33,133 bases of DNA from Prochloron sp. SulCav_FS08_3_32_3330 (GTDB lineage: Bacteria > Cyanobacteriota > Cyanobacteriia > Cyanobacteriales > DYNF01): NCBI GenBank assembly GCA_020721205.1, contig DYNF01000047.1:1-33133 (forward strand), read 5' to 3'. Made by a program: the position numbers and the translations under genes. Positions 8,157 through 27,170 of this stretch are shown here, one piece after another. Numbering within the stretch: the first letter of the stretch is position 1; each line of letters opens with the position of its first letter. Below the pieces are notes generated by a model that was not told the origin of the DNA, made no database searches, and worked only from the letters and a program-made list of their open reading frames with translations.

Positions 8157-9185
8157 ATGTTTCAATCATTTACTGTTACTAATTTTGGCAGTTTTGCTAA
8201 TCTGAATTGGCAAAAATACAGCAATTTTAATGTAATTATTGGGGAAAATGATACAGGAAAAACCTATCTCTTGAAAATCCTTTATACCTTTGCTAAATCT
8301 GTTGAAGAATATAGTAAACGTCAATTATCTGATAAGCCGACTTTTTCACAGGTTTTGGCACATAAACTTTATTGGGTATTTCAACCAGAAAATGGTTTAG
8401 GAGACTTAGTAAAAAAAGGAAACCAACAATTAGAAATAAAAGTCAAATATTGCCATCAAGATTACAGTTTTAGTTTAGATAATAATGCCACTAAAACTAT
8501 TAATCAAATATTAGGAACACCTTTATTAGCAAATGAAATTAATAGTATTTTTATTCCCCCAAAAGAAGTTTTAACAGGGTTTGATGCAATTTCAGCTATT
8601 TATGAACAATTAAAAATATTTGGTTTTGATGACACTTATCAAGATTTAATTAAGGCTTTACGTCTGCCAGTTTGTCAAGAAGAAATTAATCCTGAATTAT
8701 TAAAAATTGCTCAAGAATTAGAGACAATTTATCAAGGAAAAATTGTTTATAAAAAACAACAATTTATCTTTCAACAAAATAATGAGAATTATGGAATGTT
8801 TCAAACAGCAGAAGGAATCAAAAAAATGAGTATTATCTCGATATTAATTCGCAATCAAATGATTAAAGAAAAAACAATTCTTTTCTTCGATGAACCGGAA
8901 GTAAATTTACATCCTTTTGCCTTACAATCAATGCTAAAGTGTTTATTTAAGTTAAGTCAAATTGGGGTTAATATTTACTTGGCAACTCATAGCTATACTG
9001 TACTTAAACAATTAGAAATTCTGGCAAAAAAATATCAACAAGATCTTAATTTATGTTCTTTAATTAAAACCGATAAAATTACAGCTTATTTTAGTAATTT
9101 ATTAGAAGGAATGCCAGATAATCCAATTTTGGAAGCATCCTTAAAACTATATGAAGAAGATGTTAAATTAGAATTGGAAGCGTAG
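8157..9185 (+). CDS. AAA/ABC-like ATPase of the OLD/RecF-type
   Basis: A 342-residue ATPase starting MFQSFTVTNFGSF. Walker A is GENDTGKT at residues 29-36, Walker B is ILFFDEPEVNLHP near 241-253, and the switch region ends LATHSYTVL around 280. This is the SMC/ABC-like class of single-protein AAA ATPases, many of which work with a nuclease or an unknown partner in defence. Downstream is a decayed reading frame (9192-9466) whose start, MVIYQESGLIINL, matches the partner protein I associate with this ATPase family in cyanobacteria. The ATPase itself appears intact, but its partner is broken, so it may be in decay too. Confidence 0.75.
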   Translation: MFQSFTVTNFGSFANLNWQKYSNFNVIIGENDTGKTYLLKILYTFAKSVEEYSKRQLSDKPTFSQVLAHKLYWVFQPENGLGDLVKKGNQQLEIKVKYCHQDYSFSLDNNATKTINQILGTPLLANEINSIFIPPKEVLTGFDAISAIYEQLKIFGFDDTYQDLIKALRLPVCQEEINPELLKIAQELETIYQGKIVYKKQQFIFQQNNENYGMFQTAEGIKKMSIISILIRNQMIKEKTILFFDEPEVNLHPFALQSMLKCLFKLSQIGVNIYLATHSYTVLKQLEILAKKYQQDLNLCSLIKTDKITAYFSNLLEGMPDNPILEASLKLYEEDVKLELEA

Positions 9186-9191
9186 AAAATA

Positions 9192-9466
9192 ATGGTAATT
9201 TATCAAGAAAGTGGTTTAATAATTAATCTTTAAGTCTTAAAAAATATATACCAGAATCTTGTCAAACTGTCAAAAGTTTAAAAATTGTTTTTGTTTTTAA
9301 GATTACGAATCAAACGATTAAAGCTAGTTTATCACCTCTTAAAACAAAATTGGTTAATAGTTTACGGGGAAAATTAGCTTTATTTGATATTAATAATATA
9401 ACTTTAATTGACCATGAAATTGCCATCAAAATGGGCTTACCTTTAGCCTTAAGTATTTATGATTAA
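9192..9466 (+). pseudogene. Decayed partner gene of the AAA ATPase
   Basis: An ATG six bases after the ATPase stop opens MVIYQESGLIINL and stops at 9233. A second frame, open from 9236 to 9466, carries on with LKKYIPESCQTVKSLKIV and then a different segment ending HEIAIKMGLPLALSIYD. The normal sequence would join NL to P-LKKYIPESC, so a frameshift lies at about 9233 and an internal deletion is likely after SLKIV. The nuclease-like middle expected for this family is missing. Confidence 0.5.
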
Positions 9467-9538
9467 TTATTAACAAAATGATTTTATGAGGCGATTTTAT
9501 CGCAGTTATGGATAATATTTTAATCTCATTTTAATCCC

Positions 9539-10189
9539 ATGACTACCTTAATTTCTCCTCAAACTAATACCTATAATTCTAATAATAATACCTATCAAAA
9601 ACTGCAATTAATGTTAGAATTAGGAATTGATAAAGAAGTAATTGCCACTTTATTAGAAATAGCTGAATTTTCTATTCATCATATACGCTGGTTTGCTTCT
9701 CCCATTATTGTCTATAAATCCTCTTGGAGTGAGACTATTCCCCCTTGGTTAATTACAGCTTGTTATCGAGAAAGATTAAGCCAAATTTATTTTGAACATG
9801 AACAAAATAAAATAGAAAATTATGCCACTAAACCAGAAGTTTTAGCTTATTTATATCCCCTTAGTTTAGAAATGCCAATGCAGTCTGATTGGACTAATTT
9901 ATATCTTTGGTTAGGCAATGAAGTCTTAACAAAATATAACCGCATTAAAGATGGTCAAAAATTTTGAGATATTGTAGGAGGTTATCCTGTAGAATATAGA
10001 CAAATTCAACATAATTTTGAACAACTTGCGAGGGATATTCGACGTAGTTGTGTAGCCCAAGGAAAACAAAAAGGTTGGGGTAAGAAAAGAACAAAAAAAC
10101 AGGAAAGTAATCAAGTTGTAAATGTGCCTAAATCTTCTAATCATACTAATAGCAATAATCAAATAATACAACTATCTTTATTTAATTAA
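9539..10189 (+). pseudogene. Uncharacterised protein interrupted by one in-frame TGA
   Basis: The frame encodes 142 residues (with the segment LMLELGIDKEVIATLLEIA) up to a TGA at 9965-9967, then continues open in the same frame for 73 codons to TAA at 10187-10189. The tail reads DIVGGYPVEYRQIQHNF, then RDIRRSCVAQGKQ, then a Lys-rich and Asn-rich end LSLFN. The sequence around the stop, KF-stop-DIVGG, fits an original Trp codon (TGG to TGA). No function is recognised. A basic C-terminal tail hints at nucleic-acid binding. Confidence 0.65.
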
Positions 10190-10303
10190 ACTGGACAAAT
10201 AAATCCTAAATTGTTATAATTAGATGAGACTTTAGGATTTATTTCTTATTTCTTAATTCCAGCTTTAATTTTATTACTTAAGTTTAATCTTTTATTATTA
10301 ATA

Positions 10304-10456
10304 ATGAACAAAAATCTAGCAGGGAAAATCGCTTTAGTGACAGGGGCAACTAGAGGTATTGGCAAAGGAATTAAACAATATGCTTGGTTAATTCCTGATT
10401 TTAAAATACCTTGGGGCTTCTTGTTATTAACTTTATTAAATTCCCCTAAAATTTAA
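10304..10456 (+). pseudogene. Short-chain dehydrogenase remnant
   Basis: The 50-residue frame starts MNKNLAGKIALVTGATRGIG, the intact nucleotide-binding TGxxxGIG start of a short-chain dehydrogenase/reductase. After about residue 23 the sequence becomes unrelated (YAWLIPDFKIPWGF) and then stops. The catalytic Ser-Tyr-Lys part is absent. It looks like an internal deletion that fused the N-terminus to other DNA. Confidence 0.7.
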
Positions 10457-10587
10457 CTTAACTGTTTTTTTCAACTATAGCTATTAGCTATAAAGGGCAG
10501 TAGACTTATTACTCTCCTGTCAAATAATAACTAATAAGTAATAGTAATTCACGATTAATTCAATTATCTTTATTTTTTAATAAAAAA

Positions 10588-11202
10588 ATGCTCAATATTA
10601 TTAATTTATCAAAGTATATCATTACTAATTTCTCTAATAAAAGTCGAGAAGTGATTACACCAATTAAATTACAACAACTTCTTTATTATATAAAAGTTTG
10701 GACTTTAGTAGGAAAGCAACCTTTAATTAAAGATGATTTTATTCATGGTCAATATAGTCCTATCAACGTCAAAATTTCTCAAAAATTCACGGATATAAAT
10801 TATCAAATTGAGGAGGAAACAACTCCTCAATTAAATATTAATAGTAATCAACTTCAATTAATTAACTTTATTTTAGAAAATTATTTAGTGTTTGATAATT
10901 TCAGTCTTAGAGTGATGACTCTTAGAGAAAAACCTTATCAAGAAACGAAACTTGATGAAGTTATATCTAATGAATCAATAATTGCTTATTATCAGCAAAA
11001 AAGATTTGCTAAAAATTTTCAACCATTTGACTTAGAAAATAATTATTTTTATCCTTTAGATGATGATTGTTTTATTATAGACATGAAAACAAAAGATATC
11101 GAAGAAATTGTGAGATTTAGAAACTATCAGGAATATCAAAATTTACTGTTGTTTACCAAAAAAGAATTAACTGAATTTACAGGAAGTTTAGTAAGAGTAT
11201 AA
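10588..11202 (+). CDS. Panacea-domain (SocA/DUF4065-like) antitoxin
   Basis: A 204-residue protein with the Panacea/DUF4065 signature near its N-terminus: REVITPIKLQQLLYYIKVW and then FIHGQYSPINVKI (about residues 22-66). Panacea antitoxins neutralise a wide range of toxins, and the neighbouring gene encodes the toxin. Here the next gene, four bases downstream, is a Fic-domain protein, which makes a Panacea-Fic pair. No catalytic residues are expected in the antitoxin. The gene is intact, while the Fic gene carries an early stop codon. Confidence 0.7.
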   Translation: MLNIINLSKYIITNFSNKSREVITPIKLQQLLYYIKVWTLVGKQPLIKDDFIHGQYSPINVKISQKFTDINYQIEEETTPQLNINSNQLQLINFILENYLVFDNFSLRVMTLREKPYQETKLDEVISNESIIAYYQQKRFAKNFQPFDLENNYFYPLDDDCFIIDMKTKDIEEIVRFRNYQEYQNLLLFTKKELTEFTGSLVRV

Positions 11203-11205
11203 CAA

Positions 11206-11925
11206 ATGAAATTAAATAATTTTTATCAACATGACCGTAATTCAGAAATTGCTTATTTACAAGATTTAATAGATATATTTGGTTGTTAAAACGACTTACA
11301 AGCAGAGAAAGAAATCAAAAAACTCTATGCCCGTTTTCTCGAATTAGAAAATCAAAGAACTTTGTTATTACAAATAATAAATCAAGAAGAAAATAGCTAC
11401 TATGAATTATGTTTAAATGTCCATAGTTTTTTATATCATAATATCTTGAAAAATGCGGGTAATTTCAGACAAATTAATGACCCCAATGAGGGAAATGTGT
11501 ATTTTGGAGGGATTAATTATCGAACAATGAAAAATAAATTTGTAGGAACAAAACCTCATCTAATTAGATCAGAATTAAAACAAGCATTTAATCTATTATT
11601 TAATCAACAATATCAACCGCCAGAAAGTTCAATTCGTTTTTATGCAGAATTTGTAGCAGTTCATCCTTTTTACGATGCAAATGGTAGAATTGGTAGATAT
11701 ATTGTTGATATCTATTTACAAGCTTATAATTATTATGTAGATTGGCAATCTATTAACAAAAAACATGGTAAATTTTTGAGAAAATTAAACTACTGTCATA
11801 GTGTAAGAGAAAGATTGAAACAATCTAATCCTAATCATCAAAATGATTGGCTTTTTGTCAGAGAAAAATATTTAACTTATTTAGTAAGTTTTTGGAGTAA
11901 ATTTGTTATTAGTATTGAGCTTTAA
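11206..11925 (+). pseudogene. Fic-domain AMP-transferase-like toxin with an early nonsense codon
   Basis: An ATG at 11206 opens a frame that stops at TAA 11287-11289 (codon 28). The same frame then stays open to 11925. The Fic motif HPFYDANGRIGR lies at 11662-11697 and fits HxFx(D/E)(G/A)N(G/K)R, so the catalytic His and phosphate-binding loop look intact. The stop sits between FGC and NDLQAEKEIKKLYAR and would be CAA in an undamaged gene. Expression could only come from reinitiation, for example at TTG 11362, which would give 187 residues. Fic toxins modify protein targets with AMP or related groups. Confidence 0.7.
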
Positions 11926-11996: not shown

Positions 11997-12689
11997 ATGC
12001 CAATTATTATCTTTTATGGGGATGATGATTACCTCATTCAACGCAATCTTCATAAACTGAAAAAAGAGATTATCTCTCCCGAATGGTTACACTTTAATTA
12101 TACACAAATACCCGCAGGTATGGACTCCATTCCTACAGGAATTATGGAAAGTTTAACCCCGCCAATGGGTAATGGTGGTAAATTAATTTTACTAGAAAAT
12201 AGTAGTTGGTTTGGGGCAATAAGTCAAGAATTATTAACTCAACTGCAAACTAATTTACCCCATATTCCTGATAGTAATACTTTAGTTTTAACCAGTCAGA
12301 AAAAACCTGATGGACGGTTAAAATCTACTAAATTATTGATGGAATTAGCTACCAATATTAAAGAGTTTTATTTAATCTCACCTTGGGAGATTTCTGCTTT
12401 AAGAAATCGAGTATTTTCTGCCGCAGTTTATCTCAATTTAAAGATTACTCCCACCGCCGTTGATTGTCTAGTGGAAACTATTGGGAATAACACCCGTTTG
12501 TTATTTAATGAATTAGAAAAACTAGCCAATTATACCAATGGAAAAATGATTGAGGCTGGACATATCAAAGCATTAAATAATAATTCTAATGCTAATAGTT
12601 TAGAACTAGCTAAAGCTATTTTAGCTCAAAATAAATCCCTTTCATTGCAATTGTTACAAGACTTAATTAATATTAATGAACCCCTTTAA
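11997..12689 (+). pseudogene. holA: DNA polymerase III delta subunit, 3'-truncated
   Basis: The 230-residue frame begins MPIIIFYGDDDYLIQRNL and contains LPHIPDSNTLVLTSQKKPDG, IKEFYLISPWE and NNTRLLFNELEKLANY, the first two domains of the clamp-loader delta subunit. HolA is normally about 320-340 residues. This copy stops at LQDLININEPL, where the C-terminal collar domain should start. The truncation coincides with the end of the converging STAND gene, whose last codons overlap by 27 bp. Because HolA is essential, an intact copy is expected elsewhere. Confidence 0.75.
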
Positions 12690-14045
12690 AAATTGTTTAA
12701 ATACTGAATTTAATTGAAATACTTTATCACCATTATTAGTAACTTTCTCAATTAAACAACGTCTTTCTAAAGATTGTACTATCTTTAAAAATTCTATATT
12801 AGATAATTCTAATTTTGATGAAATAGTAAAAATATCTAAATAATTATCATTATTAGCTAACCAATAGATAACTTTTTTCTCTGATAGAGATAAACGAGAT
12901 AAATGACGTTCTAAAATTAACTCAATATCACCTAAAAATAACTCTTGATTATAATTTAAAAAATTAGCAACACTACCATTAAATAGATCATTAATTATTT
13001 CCACAATAATATTTAACCATGATGGATGTCCTTGATATAATTCAATTAATTCTGACCATTTATCTTCATCTTGTAAATCATTTTCTTGTAATATTTCTGT
13101 ATTGTTACCAGCAAAACCTTTTAAGTGAAATGTTTTTAAATGATGATTATTTCTTTCTAAACTTGATAAATGTCTGGGTTTTTCCCAACTAATAATAATT
13201 AAACAACTTTGATGAGATAAAGTAACAACTTCCTGAAAAAATTTACTATAATCTTGGTATTCAGGTAAAAATTCTCCTGCTAATTCATTTGTTTTAAATA
13301 AATTTTGGAAATCATCAAGAATTAAAAGACAACGATAATTAATAAAATAATCTAAAATTTTGGGAAAAGTTTGTTGCTGGAATTTTCCAAAATACTGTCT
13401 TAAATCGTATGTTAATTTATCAAAATGATGAACTTCACTTAAATTACGCCAAATAATATAATCAAAATTATCTTTAATTTGAGTAATTAAATAACTAATA
13501 AAGGTACTTTTCCCAATTTCACTTAATCCGTAAAGAGTAATTAATCGAATATTATTATCTAAAATCCATTGTTTAAAAATAGATAACTCAGACGAATGAC
13601 CAGAAAAATTCAAGATTTCAGGAGCATAACTTAAATCAGAAATAGGTTGTTTAGATTCGTTGTTTTGTGGCGTTTTAACTATATCGTCTTCTCTTTCAAT
13701 TTCAGTTTGTTGTTGCACTTTAGTGCTATCTCTTTCAGAACATAAGTTAATATTATTATTTACAGTTGCATAATCTTTACCAGAGAAAAAAAGAGCTTTA
13801 TTTAAAATATGTCTAAAATTATTCTTGGTAATATGTTCACCGAGGGCATCAGATAAAACTTGCCAAAGTTCTGCTCCAGTGTTTTTTAAATGACTCTCAC
13901 TACAATTAATTTCTTCAGCGATTTTAGTATAATTTTTATATTCTAAAGTTCCTTTAATAATTGCTTCTTGAAGATAATCAAGATGTTGTCCAGTATGAGA
14001 AAAAATCAAATCATCTGCTATTTTTACAATTTCAGGAATATTCAT
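12663..14045 (-). CDS. STAND NTPase with vMAP-like N-terminus and NB-ARC-like domain
   Basis: A 460-residue protein. Residues 1-90 form a helical region with LEYKNYTKIAEEINCSESHLKN, the vMAP-like N-terminal domain common in cyanobacterial NB-ARC proteins. After a polar linker (100-140), an NB-ARC-like ATPase follows: P-loop GLSEIGKS at 173-180, Walker B CLLILDD near 236-242, then a winged-helix segment SEKKVIYWLAN and a tail. No WD40 or TPR sensor repeats follow, so the protein ends after the ATPase and winged-helix parts. Related STAND proteins act in signalling and in antiphage defence (Avs-like). It stands alone on the minus strand and runs into the truncated holA gene. Confidence 0.7.
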   Translation of the reverse strand: MNIPEIVKIADDLIFSHTGQHLDYLQEAIIKGTLEYKNYTKIAEEINCSESHLKNTGAELWQVLSDALGEHITKNNFRHILNKALFFSGKDYATVNNNINLCSERDSTKVQQQTEIEREDDIVKTPQNNESKQPISDLSYAPEILNFSGHSSELSIFKQWILDNNIRLITLYGLSEIGKSTFISYLITQIKDNFDYIIWRNLSEVHHFDKLTYDLRQYFGKFQQQTFPKILDYFINYRCLLILDDFQNLFKTNELAGEFLPEYQDYSKFFQEVVTLSHQSCLIIISWEKPRHLSSLERNNHHLKTFHLKGFAGNNTEILQENDLQDEDKWSELIELYQGHPSWLNIIVEIINDLFNGSVANFLNYNQELFLGDIELILERHLSRLSLSEKKVIYWLANNDNYLDIFTISSKLELSNIEFLKIVQSLERRCLIEKVTNNGDKVFQLNSVFKQFLKGFININ

Positions 14046-14407: not shown

Positions 14408-14566
14408 ATGCCAACTCTTGCACCCTCAAAATTAGATAACTTACAAGAAAAACAATTAGAGCAACTAAATCCCAAAATTGCTGAAGCAATTAAGGCAATT
14501 CAAGCCGAATGTTCCGGTAAAGAGCCTATTGCTTGGTCTGATTTTAGCAGTCACGATAAAAACTAA
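14408..14566 (+). CDS. RiPP precursor peptide 1
   Basis: A 52-residue peptide with a helical leader (LDNLQEKQLEQLNPKIAEA) and a C-terminal core EPIAWSDFSSHDKN. The core offers aromatic three-residue motifs W-S-D, F-S-S and H-D-K, of the kind processed by cyclophane-forming radical SAM enzymes, and FSS fits the FxS motif of FxsA-type precursors. The ATG follows AAGGAGAACATCA. It differs from precursor 2 at four leader positions or nearby (P2S, L4I and C35R among them) and lacks that peptide's final Trp. The next precursor starts 12 bases after this stop. The role is inferred from size, core and the rSAM neighbour. Confidence 0.75.
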   Translation: MPTLAPSKLDNLQEKQLEQLNPKIAEAIKAIQAECSGKEPIAWSDFSSHDKN

Positions 14567-14577
14567 GGAGAACATCA

Positions 14578-14739
14578 ATGTCAACTATTGCACCCTCAAA
14601 ATTAGATAACTTACAAGAAAAACAATTAGAGCAACTAAATCCCAAAATTGCTGAAGCAATTAAGGCAATTCAAGCCGAACGTTCCGGTAAAGAGCCTATT
14701 GCTTGGTCTGATTTTAGCAGTCACGATAAAAACTGGTGA
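14578..14739 (+). CDS. RiPP precursor peptide 2
   Basis: A 53-residue near-copy of precursor 1, with the same leader and the core EPIAWSDFSSHDKNW. The two start codons are 170 bp apart and the coding and ribosome-binding sequences are almost identical, so they arose by a recent tandem duplication. Precursor 2 keeps a terminal Trp encoded by TGG before its TGA stop; in precursor 1 the duplication junction replaced it with TAA. This copy probably represents the ancestral C-terminus. It is followed by a hairpin that separates the precursors from the enzyme genes. Confidence 0.75.
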   Translation: MSTIAPSKLDNLQEKQLEQLNPKIAEAIKAIQAERSGKEPIAWSDFSSHDKNW

Positions 14740-14784
14740 GATTTTTAAGTTGAGTTATTAATATACTCATCATTAAAAATGATA

Positions 14785-14822
14785 TATCTCCTTATCATTC
14801 TATCACTTTAGATAAGGAGATA
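14785..14822. terminator. Hairpin between precursor and enzyme genes
   Basis: A perfect 12-bp stem, TATCTCCTTATC at 14785-14796 and GATAAGGAGATA at 14811-14822, has a 14-nt loop and is followed by ATTTTC. The T tract is weak, so partial termination or RNA processing is likely. Such a structure commonly keeps precursor transcripts more abundant than those of the modifying enzymes. Confidence 0.6.
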
Positions 14823-14854
14823 ATTTTCTAAATCAAAAATACAAATATTATTTT

Positions 14855-16009
14855 ATGGGAATATTGTTACCTCAGAGAACAGAATTTTATGAAGAAGTAC
14901 CAATTTCAACTTTTGTGGTAAAAGTAGCAAGTCGGTGTAATCTTAAATGTTCTTACTGTTATATGTATGAACATCCTGATCAAACTTGGCAAGAACAACC
15001 AAATTTTTTTGACTCTGAGATGATTCATATTCTTGCTACTCGTCTCAAGGAATATGCTAACAGTCGTCAGTTAAAACAACTTCTTGTTATTGCCCATGGT
15101 GGTGAACCATTATTATTAGGAGCAAAAAAACTAAGAGAGTTTTTTTCTATTATAAAAGATAGTTTACAGGAAGTCGAAACTGATGTAGGGTTTGGTCTTC
15201 AAACTAATGGAATTTTAGTCAATGATGACATTATTGACGTCTTACAAGAGTTTGACGTTCGAGCAGGTGTAAGTATTGATGGACCTCCTGAATGGCATGA
15301 TCGAATGCGTGTTGATCATAAAGGAAATGGCTCATTTAATCAAGTTATGAAAGGTGTAGAAAAATTGCGTAATCCTAACAATGGAAAATCTGTATTTGGT
15401 GGTTTTCTTACAGTGGCAAATCCAGAAATTCCTGCTCAGGAACTTTTATCATTTTTCATAAATCTAAACACCACTTCTATGGATTTTTTACTACCAGATT
15501 ATAACTTTGATACTTTTCCTTTTGATCGTTATCCCGTAGGAACTTTTGGACGTTGGTTATCAGAGCTTTTTGATTGTTGGTTAGAATCAAAAACTGACAT
15601 GGAAATTCGCAAATTCAAAACTTTTATGAAACTTTTGATGGGCGGGAAAAGGGGCTATGATGCTATTGGTGCTTTTAGTCATGGCGTTGTTGTAATTGAA
15701 ACTGATGGTACTTATCATGCTCTCGATGTACTGAAAACTTCTTATCATGGTGCTACTCAAACAGGAATGTCTTTAAGGGATCATCCTATTAAAGAATTAG
15801 AAAAATTACCTTTAGTAATGGCACTGTCAGCTAAACGGTTTTCTGTAGATCAAAAATGTCTTGATTGTCGCTTATTTGATGTTTGTGGAGGTGGTTATCT
15901 TCCTCATCGTTATAGTGAGGCTAAAGGTTTTAATCAAGAATCACTTTATTGTCAAGATTTAATGATTTTGATTGATCATATTAGCTCACGTCTTTCTAAT
16001 GAACTTTAA
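14855..16009 (+). CDS. Radical SAM/SPASM peptide-modifying enzyme (FxsB-like)
   Basis: The 384-residue enzyme has the radical SAM cluster motif CNLKCSYC (Cys28, Cys32, Cys35) and a G-G-E-P strand (AHGGEPLLLG) near 90. A C-terminal SPASM-type cysteine set follows, KCLDCRLFDVCGGGYLPHR, with a final LYCQDL. The overall layout and the CGGGYxPHR signature match the FxsB group of radical SAM enzymes that act on small ribosomal peptides, several of which form cyclophane links between an aromatic residue and a residue two positions on. The two precursors upstream carry suitable W-S-D and F-S-S triplets. It starts from ATG after the hairpin and is followed directly by the HExxH gene. Confidence 0.85.
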   Translation: MGILLPQRTEFYEEVPISTFVVKVASRCNLKCSYCYMYEHPDQTWQEQPNFFDSEMIHILATRLKEYANSRQLKQLLVIAHGGEPLLLGAKKLREFFSIIKDSLQEVETDVGFGLQTNGILVNDDIIDVLQEFDVRAGVSIDGPPEWHDRMRVDHKGNGSFNQVMKGVEKLRNPNNGKSVFGGFLTVANPEIPAQELLSFFINLNTTSMDFLLPDYNFDTFPFDRYPVGTFGRWLSELFDCWLESKTDMEIRKFKTFMKLLMGGKRGYDAIGAFSHGVVVIETDGTYHALDVLKTSYHGATQTGMSLRDHPIKELEKLPLVMALSAKRFSVDQKCLDCRLFDVCGGGYLPHRYSEAKGFNQESLYCQDLMILIDHISSRLSNEL

Positions 16010-16101
16010 TTGTTAATCAAGACAGTTATCTTGGGGAAATTACAAAAGAAGCGATCGCTTTACTTCACAATTTAGATTATAAATCTGATTTCATAACATG
16101 G

Positions 16102-16818
16102 TTGCCAAACAAATTCACTCGCTCCGGGATTAGACTTAGCACAGCCATGACTCAACCATCAGCAGCAGGAGATGAATTTCATCTAATTGAAAAAGCTCAG
16201 ATAGATTATTATAATCAGGCTTTAAATACGATTTGTTTTTGCTTAGATTTACTACCACTTTTAAATTTAGAACTTGGTATAAGTATGAGCAACTTAATGA
16301 AATTATATACAGTAATACCTAGCCGTGATCCCAACAAGAGACAAGCAGGATCTGTATCATCTTTACTGGGTTGGGCTTGGCAAGATTTTGATCCTAATGT
16401 TGATATTTTAGAGGAACAATGTCACTTATGTGTGCAGTTAGTTCATGAGTTTTTTCATACAAAACTTAATTTAGTAGAAAAAAATATTCCTCTTTATACA
16501 ACTGATGGAAACTCACCAGAAATTTTCTCACCTTGGAAAAATAGAAATCGTCCTCTCAGACAAGTTATCCATGCTCTTATGACCTTTTCAGCAGGAGCAG
16601 CAGTTTGGAATAAACTAATAACTTCTCTTTCGTTTTCATCTCCAAAAATTTACTCCCAAGCTGAGGATTATTGGTCTGAAACCATAGAATTTGCTAATTT
16701 AGCCTATCAAGGTTTATTTAATTCAGAAGTCTTAACCGATGCTGGAAAAACCTTAGTTAGTGCTTGTGTAGAACAGCTAAATTTAACAGTAAAAATAGGT
16801 AGAGATAGCTTATGTTAG
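16102..16818 (+). CDS. HExxH peptide-modifying protein (alpha-ketoglutarate HExxH-type)
   Basis: Residues 112-121 are QLVHEFFHTK, the HExxH motif. It is followed by LYTTDGNSPEIFSPW and RPLRQVIHALMTFSAGA, the pattern of the HExxH peptide-modification family that travels with FxsB-type radical SAM enzymes. Members of this group have been shown to be 2-oxoglutarate-dependent beta-hydroxylases. The annotated start is TTG 16102, but the same frame is open back to 16003 and reads DSYLGEITKEAIALLHNLDY, which looks coding. The true start may be an unusual codon such as ATT 16009, next to the radical SAM stop. It overlaps the glycosyltransferase start by seven bases. Confidence 0.75.
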   Translation: MPNKFTRSGIRLSTAMTQPSAAGDEFHLIEKAQIDYYNQALNTICFCLDLLPLLNLELGISMSNLMKLYTVIPSRDPNKRQAGSVSSLLGWAWQDFDPNVDILEEQCHLCVQLVHEFFHTKLNLVEKNIPLYTTDGNSPEIFSPWKNRNRPLRQVIHALMTFSAGAAVWNKLITSLSFSSPKIYSQAEDYWSETIEFANLAYQGLFNSEVLTDAGKTLVSACVEQLNLTVKIGRDSLC

Positions 16819-17792
16819 TTCCTGAAAAATTTAAAAAACCTGTGGTTTTTTGTGCTAATGGGATAGGTGATCATTTGATCGCCTTACCTCCATTGCGTGC
16901 CTTATCTCATTTGTTTTCTGGGAGGATATCCTTAATTGCCTTACCAGAAGCATATACAGAATTATTCTATGATATTGCCTTTGAATTTGTTTGGTTTATA
17001 GAAATTTTCGACTTAGATTCTAATAATAATGATTCCACAAGTAAAACAAAAAATATAGGGTGGAGACCTTTTAATTATCAACAACTAGCTACCCTTGCCC
17101 ATGGCTGTGATTTATTTATGTCTATTTCTCAGTGGCGGACACAGGACTTAGATTTGTTAATCGAAAAAATATCCCCATCAGTGTCTATTAGTTTTTTCCC
17201 AAATTATAGTTATCAAATACCAGATTTAGGAAATAATTCCTTTGATACAATTTTTTCTACGGTTCATTTATTTGCACCACAAATTAAGCTTAAGGAATTT
17301 AGCCAACCACCTAAAATCAATCCTCAATATATCTCTTTAGTACAATCTCTCAAAAAATCATTAGATCATGAATATAAATTATTGATTGTTCATACAGATA
17401 CCAAAAGAAGAAAAATGTGGTCATCTGATAAATTTTTAATCACAATTGATAAATTTTTATCATTAAGAAAAGATTATATAGCTATGATAATTGGTTCTTT
17501 TCAAGAATTACCCTTAGAATTAGCATCTCAAAAAAATCGAATTTTTGATCTTTGTCAGATTCCTATTAATTTATCATTTGCTTTATTAAGTGTAGCAGAT
17601 CTTTTTGTAGGAATTGATTCCTGTATGCTTCATGCGGCTGATTTATTTCGTGTACCCGGAGTCGGTATTTTTGGGGAAACCGATCCTAAAGAATGGGGCT
17701 TTCGTTTTGCACCTCATAAACACATTCATTCATGTATTATTGATTCTATTGAACCTGATCAAGTTATAGATGCCATGATGTCTTTATGTTAA
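16812..17792 (+). CDS. Glycosyltransferase family 9 (heptosyltransferase-like)
   Basis: This 326-residue protein has the GT9/ADP-heptosyltransferase layout: CANGIGDHLIALPPLRAL near the N-terminus (two-domain GT-B, first Rossmann half) and LFVGIDSCMLHAADLF with VPGVGIFGETDP near residues 266-296, which form the donor-binding half. GT9 enzymes usually transfer heptose in lipopolysaccharide synthesis. Here the gene overlaps the HExxH gene (ATGTTAG junction) in a peptide-modifying operon, so a sugar transferred to a hydroxylated residue of the precursor peptide is the simplest reading. No membrane segment is seen. The substrate is not established. Confidence 0.75.
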   Translation: MLVPEKFKKPVVFCANGIGDHLIALPPLRALSHLFSGRISLIALPEAYTELFYDIAFEFVWFIEIFDLDSNNNDSTSKTKNIGWRPFNYQQLATLAHGCDLFMSISQWRTQDLDLLIEKISPSVSISFFPNYSYQIPDLGNNSFDTIFSTVHLFAPQIKLKEFSQPPKINPQYISLVQSLKKSLDHEYKLLIVHTDTKRRKMWSSDKFLITIDKFLSLRKDYIAMIIGSFQELPLELASQKNRIFDLCQIPINLSFALLSVADLFVGIDSCMLHAADLFRVPGVGIFGETDPKEWGFRFAPHKHIHSCIIDSIEPDQVIDAMMSLC

Positions 17793-17816
17793 AATTAATT
17801 AATTAAAAATAAAAAT

Positions 17817-18641
17817 ATGTTTCAATTAATTGATGGTGTCAAAATAGTTTTCACTCCCCTGAGTATTAAAAATTTACAAGACCGTGTTTTATTAAATTCA
17901 GGGACACAAAAAGCTAATAATTTGATAAATGATGAGTTTATATATTATAATAATGAAGCACTTATTCCTCAAGAATCATGGCGAAAAGCAACAGAATTAG
18001 AAGAAAAGATACTTTTTAGTAATCAATTTGCTCAAGAAGCTGAATTTTGGGTAAGTATTATTCAACTTCCTCAAGAAATTAAAAATCATCTAAAAATGTT
18101 AAAAGATGTTAAAGAACCTAGAAAATTACAATTTGTTTTAGAAGACAAAAATGTTATTAATGGTATTAAATTAACTCAGGATTTTATCAATACTTTTTGT
18201 AATCCAGAATTATCTAGTCAATATGGTATTGGTTGGAATGCTCCTAATCAAATAACAGTAACAACAGGAAAAGATAATTATAAAGTTGGTCTTCACATTG
18301 ACAATCATCTGGAATTTCCACGTCATCGAATTTTGATTAATTTAGGGAGTGAATGTCGTTACTTTTTATTTATAAATCTATCCATAACACAAATATATGA
18401 TTTAGTTTCAAAGTATCATAATATTGCCAACAAAGATAATTTAGGTAGAACAGGACTTGCTATTATGTTTATGGAATTATTCCCTAACTATCCTGTAATT
18501 AAACTTAGAGTTAATCCTGGAGAAGCTTATATAGCAAATACAGAGCATATTATTCATGATGGAAGTACAAAAGGAACGCATCATCTTGATATTTTTTTTA
18601 CAATGCGTTCTATCTTTAATTTTAAAATAGATAAGTTTTAA
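17817..18641 (+). CDS. Fe(II)/2-oxoglutarate-dependent oxygenase-like protein
   Basis: A 274-residue protein whose C-terminal half shows an iron-binding facial triad: His160-x-Asp162 in VGLHIDNHLEF and His247 in EHIIHDGSTKG, with Arg264 in FFTMRS as a 2-oxoglutarate carboxylate partner. The strand pattern between (ILINLGSECRYFLFINL, then NPGEAYIANTE) fits the double-stranded beta-helix fold. The N-terminal 100 residues are not recognised. As last gene of the operon, 24 bases after the glycosyltransferase, it probably hydroxylates or otherwise oxidises the peptide. This would make two separate oxygenases in the same cluster. Confidence 0.7.
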   Translation: MFQLIDGVKIVFTPLSIKNLQDRVLLNSGTQKANNLINDEFIYYNNEALIPQESWRKATELEEKILFSNQFAQEAEFWVSIIQLPQEIKNHLKMLKDVKEPRKLQFVLEDKNVINGIKLTQDFINTFCNPELSSQYGIGWNAPNQITVTTGKDNYKVGLHIDNHLEFPRHRILINLGSECRYFLFINLSITQIYDLVSKYHNIANKDNLGRTGLAIMFMELFPNYPVIKLRVNPGEAYIANTEHIIHDGSTKGTHHLDIFFTMRSIFNFKIDKF

Positions 18642-18647: not shown

Positions 18648-19055
18648 TTAACTTTGTTTTTCAAGAAAATCTTTTAAAACAGTAAGATATTTTCCATTAA
18701 GATTCTTAAAGTCAGTCCAACTAAAACCGCCAAAATCATCTCCCCACCCATGAGGTAGAAAAACTTGAGAATCATCAATTTTAAACCACTCTGCTGCTTC
18801 ATGAAGTTCTAAACTAACAATTACTTCTGCAAAAGCTTGTAAAGCATCTGCCAATGTAGTAATTTTTGACAACTTGACTGTATTATTAATTGTTAGACCA
18901 ACCTCATCATTTTCCTGTCGAGAATCTGGCAAAGATGGACACCGAAGTGATAAGAGAACTGTATCTTGATCTATTTGACGAATTAAAAAGCTATAACCGG
19001 GTTTATAAGATAGCCTTTTTACTAATTCAGTTAATAGTAATAAATTTTTTCCCAT
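18648..19055 (-). CDS. Uncharacterised protein convergent with the RiPP operon
   Basis: A 135-residue soluble protein with LSYKPGYSFLIRQID, then a mid-section VSLELHEAAEWFKI and VFLPHGWGDDF. The order YKPG...ExHExxExF...PH resembles a family of small hypothetical proteins known mainly from phages and actinobacteria, but I know of no function. It ends seven bases from the oxygenase stop on the opposite strand. A relationship to the peptide cluster cannot be shown from position alone, since it is convergent and separately transcribed. Confidence 0.5.
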   Translation of the reverse strand: MGKNLLLLTELVKRLSYKPGYSFLIRQIDQDTVLLSLRCPSLPDSRQENDEVGLTINNTVKLSKITTLADALQAFAEVIVSLELHEAAEWFKIDDSQVFLPHGWGDDFGGFSWTDFKNLNGKYLTVLKDFLEKQS

Positions 19056-20161: not shown

Positions 20162-20517
20162 GATAATCTAAGGGAAATATGTTAATTAATAGATTGAAAA
20201 ATTAGATATATTTCTAATTCTTTTTTGACCATAAGCTTCCCTCGGAAATAGGTATTTCCAGATACATAAAAAAAAACCCTAATCATTACAATTAAGAGTT
20301 TCTAATTAATTTAATTCAATAGGTAGGATTATTGACAAAAACGCAATGAAATTCATTTCATTGCTCATAAATTACGTTCAATAAAATAAATTGAACTGGA
20401 TTATTCTTTTAGTTAACTTTAGTTAACGCTGACGATTAGCTTTGAAATTCATTTCAAAGCGGACTAATACTCACATCATAAAATCTCATAAAAAAACTCC
20501 TAATCCTTAAATTAAGA
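20162..20517. promoter_or_regulatory. Leader region of CRISPR array 1
   Basis: The sequence is AT-rich and non-coding. A short palindrome, GGAAATA-GG-TATTTCC, sits at 20244-20259. A fossil CRISPR repeat is at 20298-20327. Inverted repeats follow: GCAATGAAA/TTTCATTGC near 20342-20363 and GTTCAAT/ATTGAAC near 20377-20397. AGTTAACTTTAGTTAACG is at 20411-20428, and the palindrome GCTTTGAAA...TTTCAAAGC is at 20439-20460. From 20411 onward, apart from the last 50 bases, it mirrors the leader of array 2 at 32040-32111. Confidence 0.7.
20298..20327 (+). repeat. Degenerate (fossil) CRISPR repeat
   Basis: GTTTCTAATTAAT... to ...CAATAGGTAGG matches the array repeat at both ends with substitutions and a central deletion of about six bases. 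The bases before it (a run of A, then CCCTAATCATTACAATTAAGAG) also resemble those before the first true repeat (A-run, CTCCTAATCCTTAAATTAAGAG). It therefore looks like an old leader-repeat junction now stranded upstream of the active leader. Confidence 0.7.
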
Positions 20518-20983
20518 GTTTCCAACTAATCCTATTTAACCCAATAGGTAGGGAGGAAACCACTCCTCCGTGTGTGGAAGAATTCCCTAGTTTCCAACTA
20601 ATCCTATTTAACCCAATAGGTAGGGAATTTTCAAAAAAAAGGAAGAGGATTGTTTTATGACTACGTTTCCAACTAATCCTATTTAACCCAATAGGTAGGG
20701 GAATTGAAGTCAAAGTTCAAGAAAACGATGATTTGTTTCCAACTAATCCTATTTAACCCAATAGGTAGGGGTATAGTGAAATCACTGCCATACAGAAAGT
20801 TAAAGGTTTCCAACTAATCCTATTTAACCCAATAGGTAGGGGCCTTTCACTTTCAGTGGGGGTCGACTTATCTCGTTTCCAACTAATCCTATTTAACCCA
20901 ATAGGTAGGGGGGGTGACTGAGTATCGGTTATCCCAACTGATTCAACGTTTCCAACTAATCCTATTTAACCCAATAGGTAGGG
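20518..20983 (+). CRISPR. CRISPR array 1 (7 repeats, 6 spacers)
   Basis: Seven identical 36-nt repeats, GTTTCCAACTAATCC...CCAATAGGTAGGG, start at 20518, 20590, 20665, 20735, 20806, 20875 and 20948. Spacers are 36, 39, 34, 35, 33 and 37 nt. The repeat has an internal stem CCTATT/AATAGG with a six-base loop, so it can form a small hairpin. The leader lies at the left, so transcription runs left to right, towards the cas genes. None of the spacers matched another part of the window by eye. Spacer sequences are typical of functional arrays. Confidence 0.97.
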
Positions 20984-21140
20984 AGTTCGTCTGGGGGCTA
21001 TCACCCTGTAAGGATTTCAAGCCTCGATTCGACGCACAAACTAATTTTAACATAAAACCGAAAAAAAGTTGTCATAATTATTGGGTTCAAAACCTTATAT
21101 AGTAAAGATTCGACACCCAAAAACGAAAACAATAGGGTTT
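20948..21140. repeat. 193-bp inverted repeat, left arm (array 1 end plus trailer)
   Basis: The last repeat of array 1 and the following 157 bases are the exact reverse complement of 31498-31690, judged by eye. The identical part includes the GTTCGTCTGGGGGCTATC stretch and ends at AATAGGGTTT. The two arms lie just inside the cas operon's flanks and point inwards. Confidence 0.9.
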
Positions 21141-21284
21141 CGGCGATTTTCGTTTGTGCGTCGGTGAGAATCACAAAAAAAAGGAAATAGCTGATAATCC
21201 TTATATCTCAATAGTTTTAAGTCTATTTCGTTAAAAAACAATCAACGAAACACCGTTCCGACACCTAAAATTGATTTTTAGTAA
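20984..21284. other. Array 1 trailer with repeated GTGTCG/GTGCGTCG motifs
   Basis: No gene is supported here. Beside the arm of the 193-bp inverted repeat, a degenerate motif of the form TTTGTGCGTCGAATC/GGGTGTCGAATC recurs: reverse strand at 21026-21042 and 21107-21124, forward strand at 21152-21172, and a weaker reverse copy at 21255-21270 next to the last cas gene's stop. They resemble reiterated protein-binding sites. Confidence 0.5.
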
Positions 21285-22913
21285 TTAGCCCCAAATTTTA
21301 GTTAAACCCCTGTTAGTAAGTTCCGTTTCAAAAATTGCTTTATTCCCATTCCATAAAAGAGGATCATTACCCTTAAAAATAGTCACAATTTCTAAATATT
21401 GATTATTACCAATCGGTAACATTCTGTGCCAAACATGACTAACATATTGAGGAGGAGTATTAGAATTTCTACCACCGATCGCCGGAGTAAACTTAAATCT
21501 GTTCTCATGAAATAAGGTAATAACTTGAGAAGTTGTGACTACTTTAGCAAAAACTTTAACATTATGTTGATGCCATGATTCACGCCAATTATTGATGTAG
21601 TTGGGAGGAGAATTAGTAACACCTAAATATTGTTGACAAGTGGTAACTAAATCATTTAAAAAAGCTTTTAAATCATCGGTAGTTGTGATATTAATAAAAT
21701 TAGGATCAGGACAAGTCCAATGACAACCGATCTGAAATTTACGAGGATCATTAACATAACTTTTATAAAATTCATGATGAGAAACACGCCGCCAAGTCTT
21801 ACCAAAACCTGCCATAATATAGGCAAATTGTAACACTTTTTTGATTAAAATTAATTCAGATTGAGGAGCATAAAGATAGAGTTTACCAGAAGTTGTGTAA
21901 ATATTTTTAGAAATATCATTAGGTTTTGTATAGCGTATTTCTTGCCAAAATAACTTAAGTAAACTTTGGGCATCAGTATAACCAAATAACTGCTCAATTT
22001 TGCTATTAACTAACTCTTGATCCTGAGAAACACCACCTAATAAACGAGTTACATGACCCCTTAAACTAGCCTTAAAAGTTTGAGGGCGAAATTCAGGGTC
22101 TTTATTAAGAGTAACAGAAGCCACACCTTCCCCTGTTAAACTAACAACAATATGCTCATTTTCTTGAATAAAATTAGGTAATTTTCGCTCAACAAAACCA
22201 TAACCAACGCTAGTTTTACCTCCTAAACCTTGACTTAAAGCTTGATTAAATAAAGTCTTAAATTCGTCCCAATTAAGATTAGGATCAACCGTACTAAATT
22301 GAAACATTAAAGTAGGTTGTGCTAAACTAATCGCTAAATAAGCACTGGTAGTAGAATCATTAAATTTTACTTGTTTATCCTGTTGAGGGTGAACTAAATC
22401 AACAATAGAATAACGAGTTTCCGTACTATGTTGATTAATATTAACATTATGTTGTCCCGTCCATTTTCCCACAGGATAAGCCCCCAAAAACCTTACTTTT
22501 GCAGAATGTTCTTGACTACCACAATAATACTCTTTTTGGGTAATTTGTTCCTTATTATTAACAGAATTGTAACATTTATTAATATTATCACAAACCCGTA
22601 AAAATAAACCTTTAATACTACTTCCGGGAATAAAAGGAATACCATTTTTACCAAGAATAGGACGGATAATACTATCCTGTCCACTATTAGTTAAAACCCG
22701 AAAATTAAACTTAACAAAAATGCGATAAATATTCCCATTTAAACCATCTCTTTCTCTGTTTTGAATATAAATATAAGGTTGATTATTATTTTGAGGATCT
22801 ACCCATTCCTTGATCCATTGATCTCGTTGTGCTTTATTATCAGGATTTTCTAGTTTACAACGCTCTTGAAGTTGCGCTCTAAACATCATGGGAACATCAT
22901 TAGCATTAGGCAT
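21285..22913 (-). CDS. cmr6: Cmr6-Cmr1-like RAMP fusion
   Basis: A 542-residue RAMP protein. Residues 1-255 are Cmr6-like, with PFIPGSSIKGLFLRV near 92-106 and the glycine-rich loop GLGGKTSVGYGF near 230-241. From about 256 the pattern resembles Cmr1: QTFKASLRGHVTRLLGGV, IEQLFGYTDAQSL and a later FAYIMAGFGKTWRRVSH. Cmr6 alone is usually 200-300 residues, so a fusion of Cmr6 and Cmr1 is the best reading and also explains why no separate cmr1 is present. In the effector complex these subunits cap the crRNA 3' end. It is the last gene of the operon, starts after AGGAGAAA, and lies 207 bp after cmr5. Confidence 0.75.
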   Translation of the reverse strand: MPNANDVPMMFRAQLQERCKLENPDNKAQRDQWIKEWVDPQNNNQPYIYIQNRERDGLNGNIYRIFVKFNFRVLTNSGQDSIIRPILGKNGIPFIPGSSIKGLFLRVCDNINKCYNSVNNKEQITQKEYYCGSQEHSAKVRFLGAYPVGKWTGQHNVNINQHSTETRYSIVDLVHPQQDKQVKFNDSTTSAYLAISLAQPTLMFQFSTVDPNLNWDEFKTLFNQALSQGLGGKTSVGYGFVERKLPNFIQENEHIVVSLTGEGVASVTLNKDPEFRPQTFKASLRGHVTRLLGGVSQDQELVNSKIEQLFGYTDAQSLLKLFWQEIRYTKPNDISKNIYTTSGKLYLYAPQSELILIKKVLQFAYIMAGFGKTWRRVSHHEFYKSYVNDPRKFQIGCHWTCPDPNFINITTTDDLKAFLNDLVTTCQQYLGVTNSPPNYINNWRESWHQHNVKVFAKVVTTSQVITLFHENRFKFTPAIGGRNSNTPPQYVSHVWHRMLPIGNNQYLEIVTIFKGNDPLLWNGNKAIFETELTNRGLTKIWG

Positions 22914-23120
22914 AATTTTCTCCTGTAAATATTAAGAAATTGATTTTAGAAAAAATTTAGAAAAATAAAATATTAAGGAAAATAACGATAAAATTCACAG
23001 CGATGAAATAGTTTGATAACTAATTAAATTTAACTAAAATTGAAATAGGAAAATAAAATAATTACGAATAAAAAAAAACTAATTAATCTATTTACCTATT
23101 ATAGAATAACTAACAATTAA

Positions 23121-23558
23121 TTAACCATTATTACCGCCCCCAATCGTAAATTTATAACGCTGAGTCCACCAAACTAAAGCATCACATAATTGAGTTAAAA
23201 CAGCTAAAGCAATTTGTTGATCTTGCCTGTCTAAATCCCATAATTGGTCCGCCATAGTATTAATATTTTGATGATTAGGTAAATTAACCTCAGCCATGTT
23301 TAAAATAGATACTAATTCATCCCAAACATCAGCCCAAAATTTAGCTTTAGCAGACTCTAATTTTTTCTCACTTTCTAATCTTAATTGTTCCCCCCAAAAA
23401 CGCTCTAAACCGTAAACAATAGCTTGACGCATTTTGTGACATTCTTTAATTAAAATTTGGGTTTCTTTATCTTCTAAATGTAGAAGATTAGCCCTTTGTA
23501 GTTGATTTTTAATTAAAATTCTGGCTTTTTCATCTAAACCATAATAATTAACAGTCAT
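23121..23558 (-). CDS. cmr5: Cmr5/Cas11 small subunit
   Basis: A 145-residue, all-helical protein with charged and Trp-containing helices (RFWGEQLRLESEKKLESAK, WDELVSILNMAEV, QLCDALVWWTQRYKF) and no enzyme motifs. Length, helical nature and location between cmr4 and the Cmr6-like gene match the type III-B small subunit that forms the minor filament along the crRNA-target duplex. Sequence conservation in this family is weak, so the call rests mainly on position and size. Its ATG follows AAAGGAGTATT. Confidence 0.65.
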   Translation of the reverse strand: MTVNYYGLDEKARILIKNQLQRANLLHLEDKETQILIKECHKMRQAIVYGLERFWGEQLRLESEKKLESAKAKFWADVWDELVSILNMAEVNLPNHQNINTMADQLWDLDRQDQQIALAVLTQLCDALVWWTQRYKFTIGGGNNG

Positions 23559-23601
23559 GATTAATACTCCTTTCTGAAATTAAATAATAAATTAAGTAAA
23601 A

Positions 23602-23681
23602 GTTGTAGGTTGGGTTAAGGGAACGAAACCCAACTCTCATAACTTGTGTTGGGTTGCACTCCGTTTAACCCAACCTACAAC
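23602..23681. repeat. GTAGGTTGGGTT-type inverted repeat between cmr5 and cmr4
   Basis: GTTGTAGGTTGGGTTAA at 23602-23618 is the exact inverse of TTAACCCAACCTACAAC at 23665-23681. The centre contains CGAAACCCAAC and GTTGGGTTGCA, adding a second inner hairpin. It is an intergenic palindromic repeat of a kind common in cyanobacteria. In the transcript it would fold between two cas genes and could influence relative expression. Confidence 0.85.
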
Positions 23682-23684
23682 TGA

Positions 23685-24563
23685 TTAACTAACATTGTTA
23701 TCTTGAAAATATTGACCATTTAAAGTTACTTGAGTACGTCCAAAACCAATAGATTCTAAACCCCCAAAATAAAGCTCTTTTTTAAGAGAATTATTGTCTA
23801 ATGTTTCCCATTCAGTTACTTCTAAAGTTTCTTGTAACTTAATAGAATCATTATCTTTTTCTTTAATAGCGATCGGGAAGATTAAAATACTACCTTCAGG
23901 TAAAGCTTCAGTATTAAAAAAGCCACCTTTATCACTATCAACAATTTTCTCATCATCTTTTAATTTAACTCGACTTTGACGAAATAAAGCCATGTCATGA
24001 ATAATTCCCATTTCCGCATCTTCTACCACTAATAAATTAGTAGGAGGATTTTCTAAACCTTCAGGTATCCATTGTAATAACTCTGGAGTATTTCTTAAAT
24101 TGTCAATAAAACCTAAATTAAAAAATAAAACATTGCGAGGATTGGTTAATTTTACTTGATTAGGTTTAGGGAAATTATTAACAGTAGGAGCAGGTAAATT
24201 ACTATTAGTAGATTTTACGATTTGATAATAGCGTTTTAACAATCTTGGACAAGTAATATATACCACAGGTTGCCCCGGACAAAACACAGGAAGCCAAACT
24301 AAAGACGCATATTCAAACTTAACTTTTGCTTCACTGGTTAAAATTTCTGAACTACCTTTTTCCCCTTCATGTCCATAAATTTCATTAGCATATTCACCTA
24401 TATCAGCCCGAAAACGTCCTCGAATAGAACTACCCGGAATAATACCAGTTTGAGTAAATTGATCTCGAAAAATCAAGTTTAAATTACCCGTTTCTTCCCC
24501 CGAAGAAGCACCCACATGAAGGGGTGCTAAAGTTTCCATAATACCGTAAGCTTTGTTATACAT
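23685..24563 (-). CDS. cmr4: Cmr4-like Cas7 backbone protein, catalytic Asp missing
   Basis: The 292-residue RAMP starts MYNKAYGIMETLAPLHVGA and carries IIPGSSIRGRFR (about 40-51) and, near the C-terminus, YFGGLESIGFGRTQV. It is the Cas7-group backbone that lies along the crRNA. In Csm3 and Cmr4 relatives the RNA-cutting Asp sits in a motif like GVDNPVIRD. Here the ungapped equivalent is GNLNLIFRD (residues 26-34), with Leu28 in place of the Asp. Target RNA cleavage may therefore be lost. The first 12 codons and upstream 49 bases are duplicated at 25303-25388. Confidence 0.8.
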   Translation of the reverse strand: MYNKAYGIMETLAPLHVGASSGEETGNLNLIFRDQFTQTGIIPGSSIRGRFRADIGEYANEIYGHEGEKGSSEILTSEAKVKFEYASLVWLPVFCPGQPVVYITCPRLLKRYYQIVKSTNSNLPAPTVNNFPKPNQVKLTNPRNVLFFNLGFIDNLRNTPELLQWIPEGLENPPTNLLVVEDAEMGIIHDMALFRQSRVKLKDDEKIVDSDKGGFFNTEALPEGSILIFPIAIKEKDNDSIKLQETLEVTEWETLDNNSLKKELYFGGLESIGFGRTQVTLNGQYFQDNNVS

Positions 24564-24613
24564 AAATCACTCCTAAATTAATAAAAAAAAATTGTTTGTT
24601 GTTGTGCTTTAGC
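24528..24613 (-). repeat. 86-bp direct repeat, copy at the cmr4 start
   Basis: These bases cover the first 12 codons of cmr4 and its upstream leader. They are repeated at 25303-25388 without visible differences. The MntA/HepT genes lie exactly between the two copies. Confidence 0.9.
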
Positions 24614-24619
24614 ACTAAC

Positions 24620-24970
24620 TTAAATATTAGATTCTTGTACAATAATATTGATTATTTCCTGTAATAAAAAAGGTAAATTATCAGTTACAGTTTGCCAAAC
24701 AATATCATAATTAATGCCAAAATAAGCATGAACTAAACGATTTCTCATCCCAATCATATCTCCCCAAGGAATATGAGGATAACGACTTTGACATTCAGCC
24801 GAAATATTATTAGCGGCTTCACCAATAATTTCTAATTCTTTAACCAGAGATAAAGCCAACATTCGATTATTTTCTAAATCATCTTTAGTTTGATTAGCCA
24901 TAAATTGTAAAGCTTCACTACAAGCATCTCTAATATGTTTTAAACGAGATAAATCATCTTGTAATGTCAT
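24620..24970 (-). CDS. hepT: HepT-like HEPN ribonuclease toxin
   Basis: A 116-residue HEPN protein of the DUF86 type. The conserved RNA-cutting motif RX4HXY appears as RNRLVHAYF near residues 81-89, preceded by the helix LALSLVKELEIIGEAANNIS. HepT cuts RNA or tRNA and is neutralised when its partner MntA adds AMP groups to the Tyr of this motif. The start overlaps the end of mntA by 17 bp. Both motifs are intact, so the pair is likely active. It lies inside the cas operon, on the same strand. Confidence 0.85.
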   Translation of the reverse strand: MTLQDDLSRLKHIRDACSEALQFMANQTKDDLENNRMLALSLVKELEIIGEAANNISAECQSRYPHIPWGDMIGMRNRLVHAYFGINYDIVWQTVTDNLPFLLQEIINIIVQESNI

Positions 24971-25277
24971 ATTGTACCTCCGCTTCTGCTATAACTTTTT
25001 GACGAAAATAAGGGCTTAATTCTTGAGAAGTTCTTAAATCAATTTTTCGACCTAAAAATAATTTTGATAATTCCCTTTCCATTTGAGCTAATTTAAAAAA
25101 AGTAGGCGTATAATTAGCTTCAAATTCTACTAAAAAATCGAGGTCACTTTCAGGGGTAAAATCATCTCTTAAAACTGAACCAAATAAAGATAATTTAGCA
25201 ATAAAATTACGTTGACAAAACTCCTTTAATTCTAATTTTGGAATCATAATAGGTAAAGACAATACATTTTTACTCAT
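24954..25277 (-). CDS. mntA: MntA-like minimal nucleotidyltransferase antitoxin
   Basis: A 107-residue protein with the nucleotidyltransferase signature GSVLRDDFTPESDLDFLVEF (about residues 33-52), in which the metal-binding acids are D49 and D51 region (SDLD), and a downstream RKIDLRT providing the third Asp. Minimal nucleotidyltransferases of this kind polyAMPylate HepT. The ribosome-binding site GGGAGG precedes its ATG. The start codon overlaps the stop of a short frame derived from the duplicated cmr4 start (ATGAGTAA), so translation may be coupled to that leader. Confidence 0.85.
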   Translation of the reverse strand: MSKNVLSLPIMIPKLELKEFCQRNFIAKLSLFGSVLRDDFTPESDLDFLVEFEANYTPTFFKLAQMERELSKLFLGRKIDLRTSQELSPYFRQKVIAEAEVQYDITR

Positions 25278-25388: not shown

Positions 25389-25389
25389 T

Positions 25390-27130: not shown

Positions 27131-27170
27131 AATTGATTAGTTACTGTTAAATTTATCAAAGGTTTTAAAG

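Follow-up and report, generated by a model that had tools for sequence, protein, structure and literature searches.

What would a cyanobacterium make from two short precursor peptides encoded beside a radical S-adenosylmethionine (SAM) enzyme, an HExxH protein, a GT9 glycosyltransferase and a 2-oxoglutarate (2OG)-dependent iron oxygenase? We addressed this question for a 33,133-nucleotide stretch of Prochloron sp. SulCav_FS08_3_32_3330 (GCA_020721205.1, contig DYNF01000047.1, positions 1-33,133 of the forward strand; hereafter the window), which comes from a draft genome of 209 contigs that is 99.4% complete. A first-pass annotation of the letters had described an operon of two precursors and four enzymes. 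All of these genes are real, but the HExxH gene lacks its 5' end, leaving three intact enzymes and one truncated gene, and two further genes had been overlooked: a divergent NB-ARC gene upstream, encoding a STAND nucleoside triphosphatase (NTPase), and a small open reading frame, ORF7, downstream (Table 1). We consider the cluster likely to be a cyanobacterial pathway for a ribosomally synthesized and post-translationally modified peptide (RiPP) of the three-residue-cyclophane (triceptide) kind. What we read directly from the DNA comprises the identities of the genes, their synteny, the conservation of the core, the truncation and the gene losses.

Both short precursors with the core quoted in the first-pass annotation were confirmed. 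They are near-identical copies of a unit of about 170 bp, each with an AGGAG site ahead of its ATG, and share the core EPIAWSDFSSHDKN, to which precursor 2 adds a Trp; no further copies were found elsewhere in the source genome. In an alignment of 13 precursors, the core never varied at W, D, F, S, S or H, whereas the position separating W from D held S, A, Q, R, K or L. A variable middle residue flanked by invariant Trp and Asp is the pattern expected if those two residues are joined. The precursors resemble those of triceptides in being short, adjoining a radical SAM gene and carrying aromatic-x-residue triads (W-x-D and FSS) in a conserved core. Cross-links of Trp to Asp or Asn and of Phe to Ser have been reported (review PMC11002830), with OscB named for Trp-Asp and MscB for Phe-Ser, and match the window motifs. 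Given these reports and the core conservation, we predict that the product most plausibly carries two three-residue cyclophanes, one at W-x-D and one at F-S-S. The OscB and MscB triceptides are described in that review as products of radical SAM enzymes alone, and MscA/MscB is likened here by description only. The core extends to FSSHDKN(W) rather than ending in F-x-S-x-x-COOH, and no NCBIfam precursor model of the FxSxx-COOH type matched. The leader is helical and conserved (QL-x-x-(I/L)NPK...AI-x-AIQAE). A strong stem-loop between precursor 2 and the radical SAM gene is possibly an attenuator or processing site; it was absent from the one relative folded, where the fold was poor.

The best NCBIfam families for the radical SAM protein were YhhB (396 bits, cutoff 445) and FxsB (357 bits, cutoff 370). 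Since the enzymes of relatives score alike (391-395 and 358-366 bits, respectively), it appears to represent a distinct branch beside both families. Its cysteines (CNLKCSYC and CLDC...CGGG...YC) align with those of ChlB, covering the CxxxCxxC cluster and the SPASM cysteines, and the ChlB radical SAM domain (9gm3) was the nearest solved structure (1.8e-81, about 37% identity, full length). ChlA/ChlB of Chlorogloeopsis (YhhA/YhhB type; PDB 9gm3, 9gmc, 8s5f) is the closest characterized system, and likewise combines an FxsB-lineage radical SAM enzyme with an alpha-ketoglutarate-dependent HExxH (aKG-HExxH) activity on a short precursor. However, ChlB is a single fused protein, whereas the window encodes the two enzymes in separate frames with a stop codon between them, and the ChlA core SYDRMHHRHNRS presents Tyr/His triads in place of W-x-D and F-S-S. 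One of our loci (L031, 6921-9312, minus strand) is apparently chl itself: its radical SAM domain shows no difference from 9gm3 within the alignment, and its YhhA-family precursor has the ChlA core. No match to GT9, the 2OG enzyme, STAND or ORF7 was found in its flanks.

The first-pass annotation had proposed searching for this neighbourhood across cyanobacterial genomes, with a chance association of the GT9 or 2OG genes as the outcome that would overturn its proposal. We compared the window with eight loci from public genomes and one further whole genome. The cluster occurs in Microcoleaceae, Oscillatoria, Planktothricoides and metagenome-assembled genomes of Oscillatoriales, with radical SAM enzymes 69-71% identical to that of the window; of 391 genomes drawn from the order, nine other than that of the window carried this 70% type, and most of these are the genomes behind the public loci. 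The order in relatives is a divergent STAND gene, one or two precursors, then the radical SAM, HExxH, GT9, 2OG and ORF7 genes. Because this order recurs, the gene set is not a product of chance. Nine relatives keep it, with GT9 and 2OG optional but recurring in place.

The GT9 gene overlaps the HExxH stop codon by 7 nt, and its product belongs to PF01075. It falls far below the cutoff of the lipopolysaccharide heptosyltransferase model (TIGR02193, 41 vs 185 bits). ADP-heptose was rejected as donor, with gmhA not found in the source genome. On these two grounds the heptose mass shift anticipated in the first-pass annotation is unlikely, and the sugar is probably another one. A search of 376 other cyanobacterial genomes, at 1e-20, returned no member of this GT9 branch. 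The 2OG protein matched no Pfam or NCBIfam model. Compared by protein alone, it matched MicC, an alpha-ketoglutarate-dependent non-heme iron oxygenase of solved structure (PDB 9vkm), at 4e-29 over nearly its whole length, with HIDN and IIHDGST kept; the iron ligands H160, D162 and H247 were invariant in six sequences. Among 386 cyanobacterial genomes, nine others carry this MicC-like family, and in six of the nine it adjoins or is fused with radical SAM/SPASM maturases (three GrrM/OscB neighbours above cutoff, two DynA-like). At one locus (L054, 7172-11544, minus strand) two adjacent genes each encode a radical SAM/SPASM protein fused to a MicC-like 2OG domain (719 and 738 aa). This association speaks against chance proximity and supports a function of the family in tailoring peptides modified by radical SAM enzymes.

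The two tailoring genes are unevenly distributed. The window, L003, L004 and L006 carry an intact GT9 gene; an internal deletion splits it in two Planktothricoides genomes (L005 and L023), and L008, L002 and L009 lack it. 2OG is absent only from L002 and L009. The L007 locus ends ahead of both genes. Absence from L002 represents loss, as its closest relative, L003, has both. The 2OG gene is kept without GT9 (L008, Planktothricoides), while GT9 never occurs without 2OG, and the window retains both intact despite its truncated HExxH gene. This pattern is consistent with 2OG acting before GT9; most simply, the sugar would be attached to a 2OG-made hydroxyl or a native Ser rather than to an HExxH-made hydroxyl. 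Ratios of nonsynonymous to synonymous substitution (dN/dS) between L004 and L006 were 0.14-0.37 for the radical SAM gene, the C-terminal part of HExxH, GT9, 2OG and ORF7, indicating purifying selection. Recurrence in place, this selection and the pairing of 2OG with radical SAM enzymes uphold the link of GT9 and 2OG to the pathway, but both are accessory and repeatedly lost.

The HExxH protein scored 55.9 bits against TIGR04267 (cutoff 40), identifying it as an aKG-HExxH peptide beta-hydroxylase. A full-length relative matched ChlH weakly (5.2e-4), with the alignment taking in the HExxH, SPW..RP and H region; in profile comparisons, both ChlH and the Microcoleaceae HExxH protein aligned only around and after the motif. 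In relatives, the gene is complete, starting 12 bp after the radical SAM gene and encoding 414-416 aa. The frame in the window begins instead at the radical SAM stop codon, at the equivalent of residue 148, so that the start codon and about 147 N-terminal residues are missing; it is open from 16003, with no ATG, GTG or TTG until a TTG at 16102. Relocation of the N-terminal part was rejected: it was found nowhere in the source genome, and the same search in a control genome returned that genome's own copy at 2e-93. A programmed frameshift joining the radical SAM and HExxH frames is unlikely, with no slippery heptamer seen by eye and a TGA at 16000-16002 bounding the HExxH frame. The AlphaFold model of a full-length relative (predicted local distance difference test, pLDDT, 41) was too low in confidence to show whether the N-terminus is a separate domain.

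The remaining frame runs for 271 codons without a stop and keeps the HExxH, SPW and RP motifs, and its dN/dS between the window and L006 was 0.17, compared to 0.14 for the radical SAM gene (dS exceeded 1, so these ratios are rough). These features suggest that the 5' loss may be recent or that a shorter protein may still be made. The enzyme of the window is probably weak or inactive. A cyclophane RiPP with peptide hydroxylation, as first proposed, is well supported by homology and synteny. The further proposal, that the product is multiply hydroxylated, is doubtful for this genome because of the truncation.

Two other explanations turn on the truncation. The pathway could be decaying here, hydroxylase first, and yield at most a cyclophane peptide or nothing. 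We regard this as possible, if on balance doubtful: the loss of the HExxH start and N-terminal region from the whole genome, the fact that relatives have lost GT9 and 2OG repeatedly and the inversion of ORF7 off the operon strand would all fit, but the other genes are intact and free of stops, and what is left of HExxH is open, keeps its motifs and evolves at a dN/dS close to that of the radical SAM gene. Alternatively, the truncation could be an assembly error that conceals a full-length gene. The many contigs of the draft, and a full-length HExxH gene in every relative long enough to judge, leave room for such an error; the clean junction, well inside a 33 kb contig, and the lack of a stray N-terminal fragment in a nearly complete genome make it improbable.

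The two outer genes of the cluster are the STAND gene and ORF7. The STAND protein has an N-terminal helix-turn-helix (HTH)-like segment, an NB-ARC domain (43.8 bits in a relative; Table 1) and a winged-helix-like C-terminus. It is encoded divergently in all seven relatives with upstream sequence, with 61-97% identity among relatives and 34-40% to the window protein. A relative's protein reached only 19 of the 300 bits required by FxSxx_TPR, the model for the TPR partner of FxSxx-COOH systems. A similar gene accompanies a second FxsB and HExxH cluster of Microcoleaceae (L070-L074), which shares the precursor-radical SAM-HExxH order: upstream of it, four of the five genomes (L070-L073) encode a divergent HTH-NB-ARC protein about 32-35% identical over its full length, together with a 71-74 aa precursor (ending, for example, in HESHSSHAEFHQRAWG). 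In that cluster, however, the radical SAM enzyme is only about 37% identical, the precursor is unrelated, the HExxH protein measures 613 aa and a DUF483-like gene lies downstream, and there was no match to GT9, 2OG or ORF7. None of the 11 other control loci (166 kb) had a STAND-like gene. We therefore regard the STAND NTPase as a probable regulator or sensor of the cluster.

ORF7 is 63-71% identical in six relatives, where it lies on the plus strand. A search of 385 other cyanobacterial genomes matched it nowhere beyond the cluster, viral contigs gave no match either, and a fold search with its model (pLDDT 72.5) found nothing under 0.001. ORF7 may be a dedicated partner of the cluster. A weak resemblance to type III secretion chaperones, CesT among them (E 0.26), was not relied on. 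A W-x-D-F motif occurs in the precursor core (14704), in the HExxH enzyme (16378; GWAWQDFD, invariant in the lineage) and in ORF7 (invariant W, D and F), and the leader in L005 and L006 also carries TWSDF; this sharing was noticed post hoc and is possibly due to chance.

A further explanation is that the peptide is no secreted natural product but an intracellular signal or effector under the STAND NTPase, in a conflict or immunity-like system. Radical-SAM-modified peptide effectors in NTPase conflict systems have been described by Kaur et al. (PMC7159879), offering a precedent, and the fixed divergent position of STAND in two distant cluster types but not in control loci, the lack of a recognized exporter, and the Fic, SocA-like, AAA_15 and type III-B CRISPR genes flanking the window cluster point the same way. 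However, PADLOC gave no cluster-specific match, the STAND gene may simply regulate transcription, and the defence-like flanks were seen for the window only; we consider this explanation unlikely. A bolder version, in which a single intracellular switch comprises the STAND NTPase, ORF7 and the peptide in cross-linked, hydroxylated and glycosylated form, with the peptide held as ligand or effector by an NLR-like NTPase and W-x-D-F marking a shared recognition surface, is highly speculative.

In the triceptide pathway that we favour, the radical SAM enzyme would bind the conserved leader and most likely join Trp to the C-beta of Asp in W-x-D and Phe to Ser in F-S-S. The aKG-HExxH enzyme of relatives would then beta-hydroxylate the cross-linked core, for which ChlB, with beta-hydroxylation after cross-linking, is a precedent (PMC12636437). 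The MicC-like enzyme would make a second oxidation, either a hydroxylation or a further cross-link, before GT9 adds a sugar, probably not heptose, to a core hydroxyl. The upstream NTPase would regulate or sense the pathway, and ORF7 would be a dedicated partner. All of the chemistry, its order and the roles of STAND and ORF7 are inferred. Several observations weigh against this pathway: the radical SAM enzyme lies under the curated cutoffs of both YhhB and FxsB, the precursors match no named NCBIfam family, no protease or exporter gene was recognized between the STAND gene and ORF7, the loss order of GT9 and 2OG comprises only about three independent events, and the missing start of the window hydroxylase raises the possibility that the pathway is decaying in this genome.

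Table 1. Features of the cluster in the window.
Feature	Position	Strand	Evidence
Divergent STAND NTPase (460 aa)	12663..14045	-	PF00931 25.4 bits vs gathering score 23.5; same place in relatives with flank
Precursor peptide 1 (52 aa)	14408..14566	+	13-sequence alignment, invariant W-x-D-F-S-S-H
Precursor peptide 2 (53 aa), tandem duplicate, one extra C-terminal W	14578..14739	+	Precursor alignment
RNA stem-loop between precursors and radical SAM gene	14785..14822	+	Fold z-score -4.4 for 14740-14850
Radical SAM/SPASM cyclophane synthase (384 aa), FxsB/YhhB lineage (predicted)	14855..16009	+	YhhB 396 bits, FxsB 357 bits; ChlB radical SAM domain 9gm3 1.8e-81
aKG-HExxH peptide hydroxylase, 5'-truncated, catalytic region kept	16009..16818	+	TIGR04267 and comparison with relatives
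GT9 glycosyltransferase (326 aa)	16812..17792	+	PF01075 34.1 bits vs gathering score 22
MicC-like 2OG-Fe oxygenase (274 aa), conserved HxD...H	17817..18641	+	4e-29 to solved MicC
ORF7 (135 aa), cluster-specific	18648..19055	-	63-71% identity in six relatives

Beyond the cluster, the upstream flank (8157-11925) holds AAA_15, SocA-like and Fic genes, which are defence-like. Downstream (20500-31134) lie translated repeats of the SPIGLNRISWK type and, also defence-like, type III-B CRISPR genes (Cmr2, Cmr3, RAMPs, SAVED and APE2256-type).

Cyclophane synthesis and HExxH hydroxylation are already known from Chl. What is new is the unfused radical SAM/HExxH pair with a W/F core, the occurrence of GT9 and a MicC-like 2OG enzyme within a single pathway, a STAND gene linked to such clusters more than once, and ORF7. 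No described product of this gene combination was found in the literature searched, which left most subscription journals outside its scope; on GT9 in RiPPs, MicC and YhhB it offered only mentions in reviews. If our reading is correct, cyclophane RiPPs would gain a longer maturation comprising cross-links, two kinds of 2OG-dependent oxidation and glycosylation, and a 2OG family without a Pfam model would be linked to radical SAM maturases across cyanobacteria, radical SAM-2OG fusions included. Two distant cluster types would also tie a STAND NTPase to FxsB-type RiPPs, making the biological role of these peptides testable.

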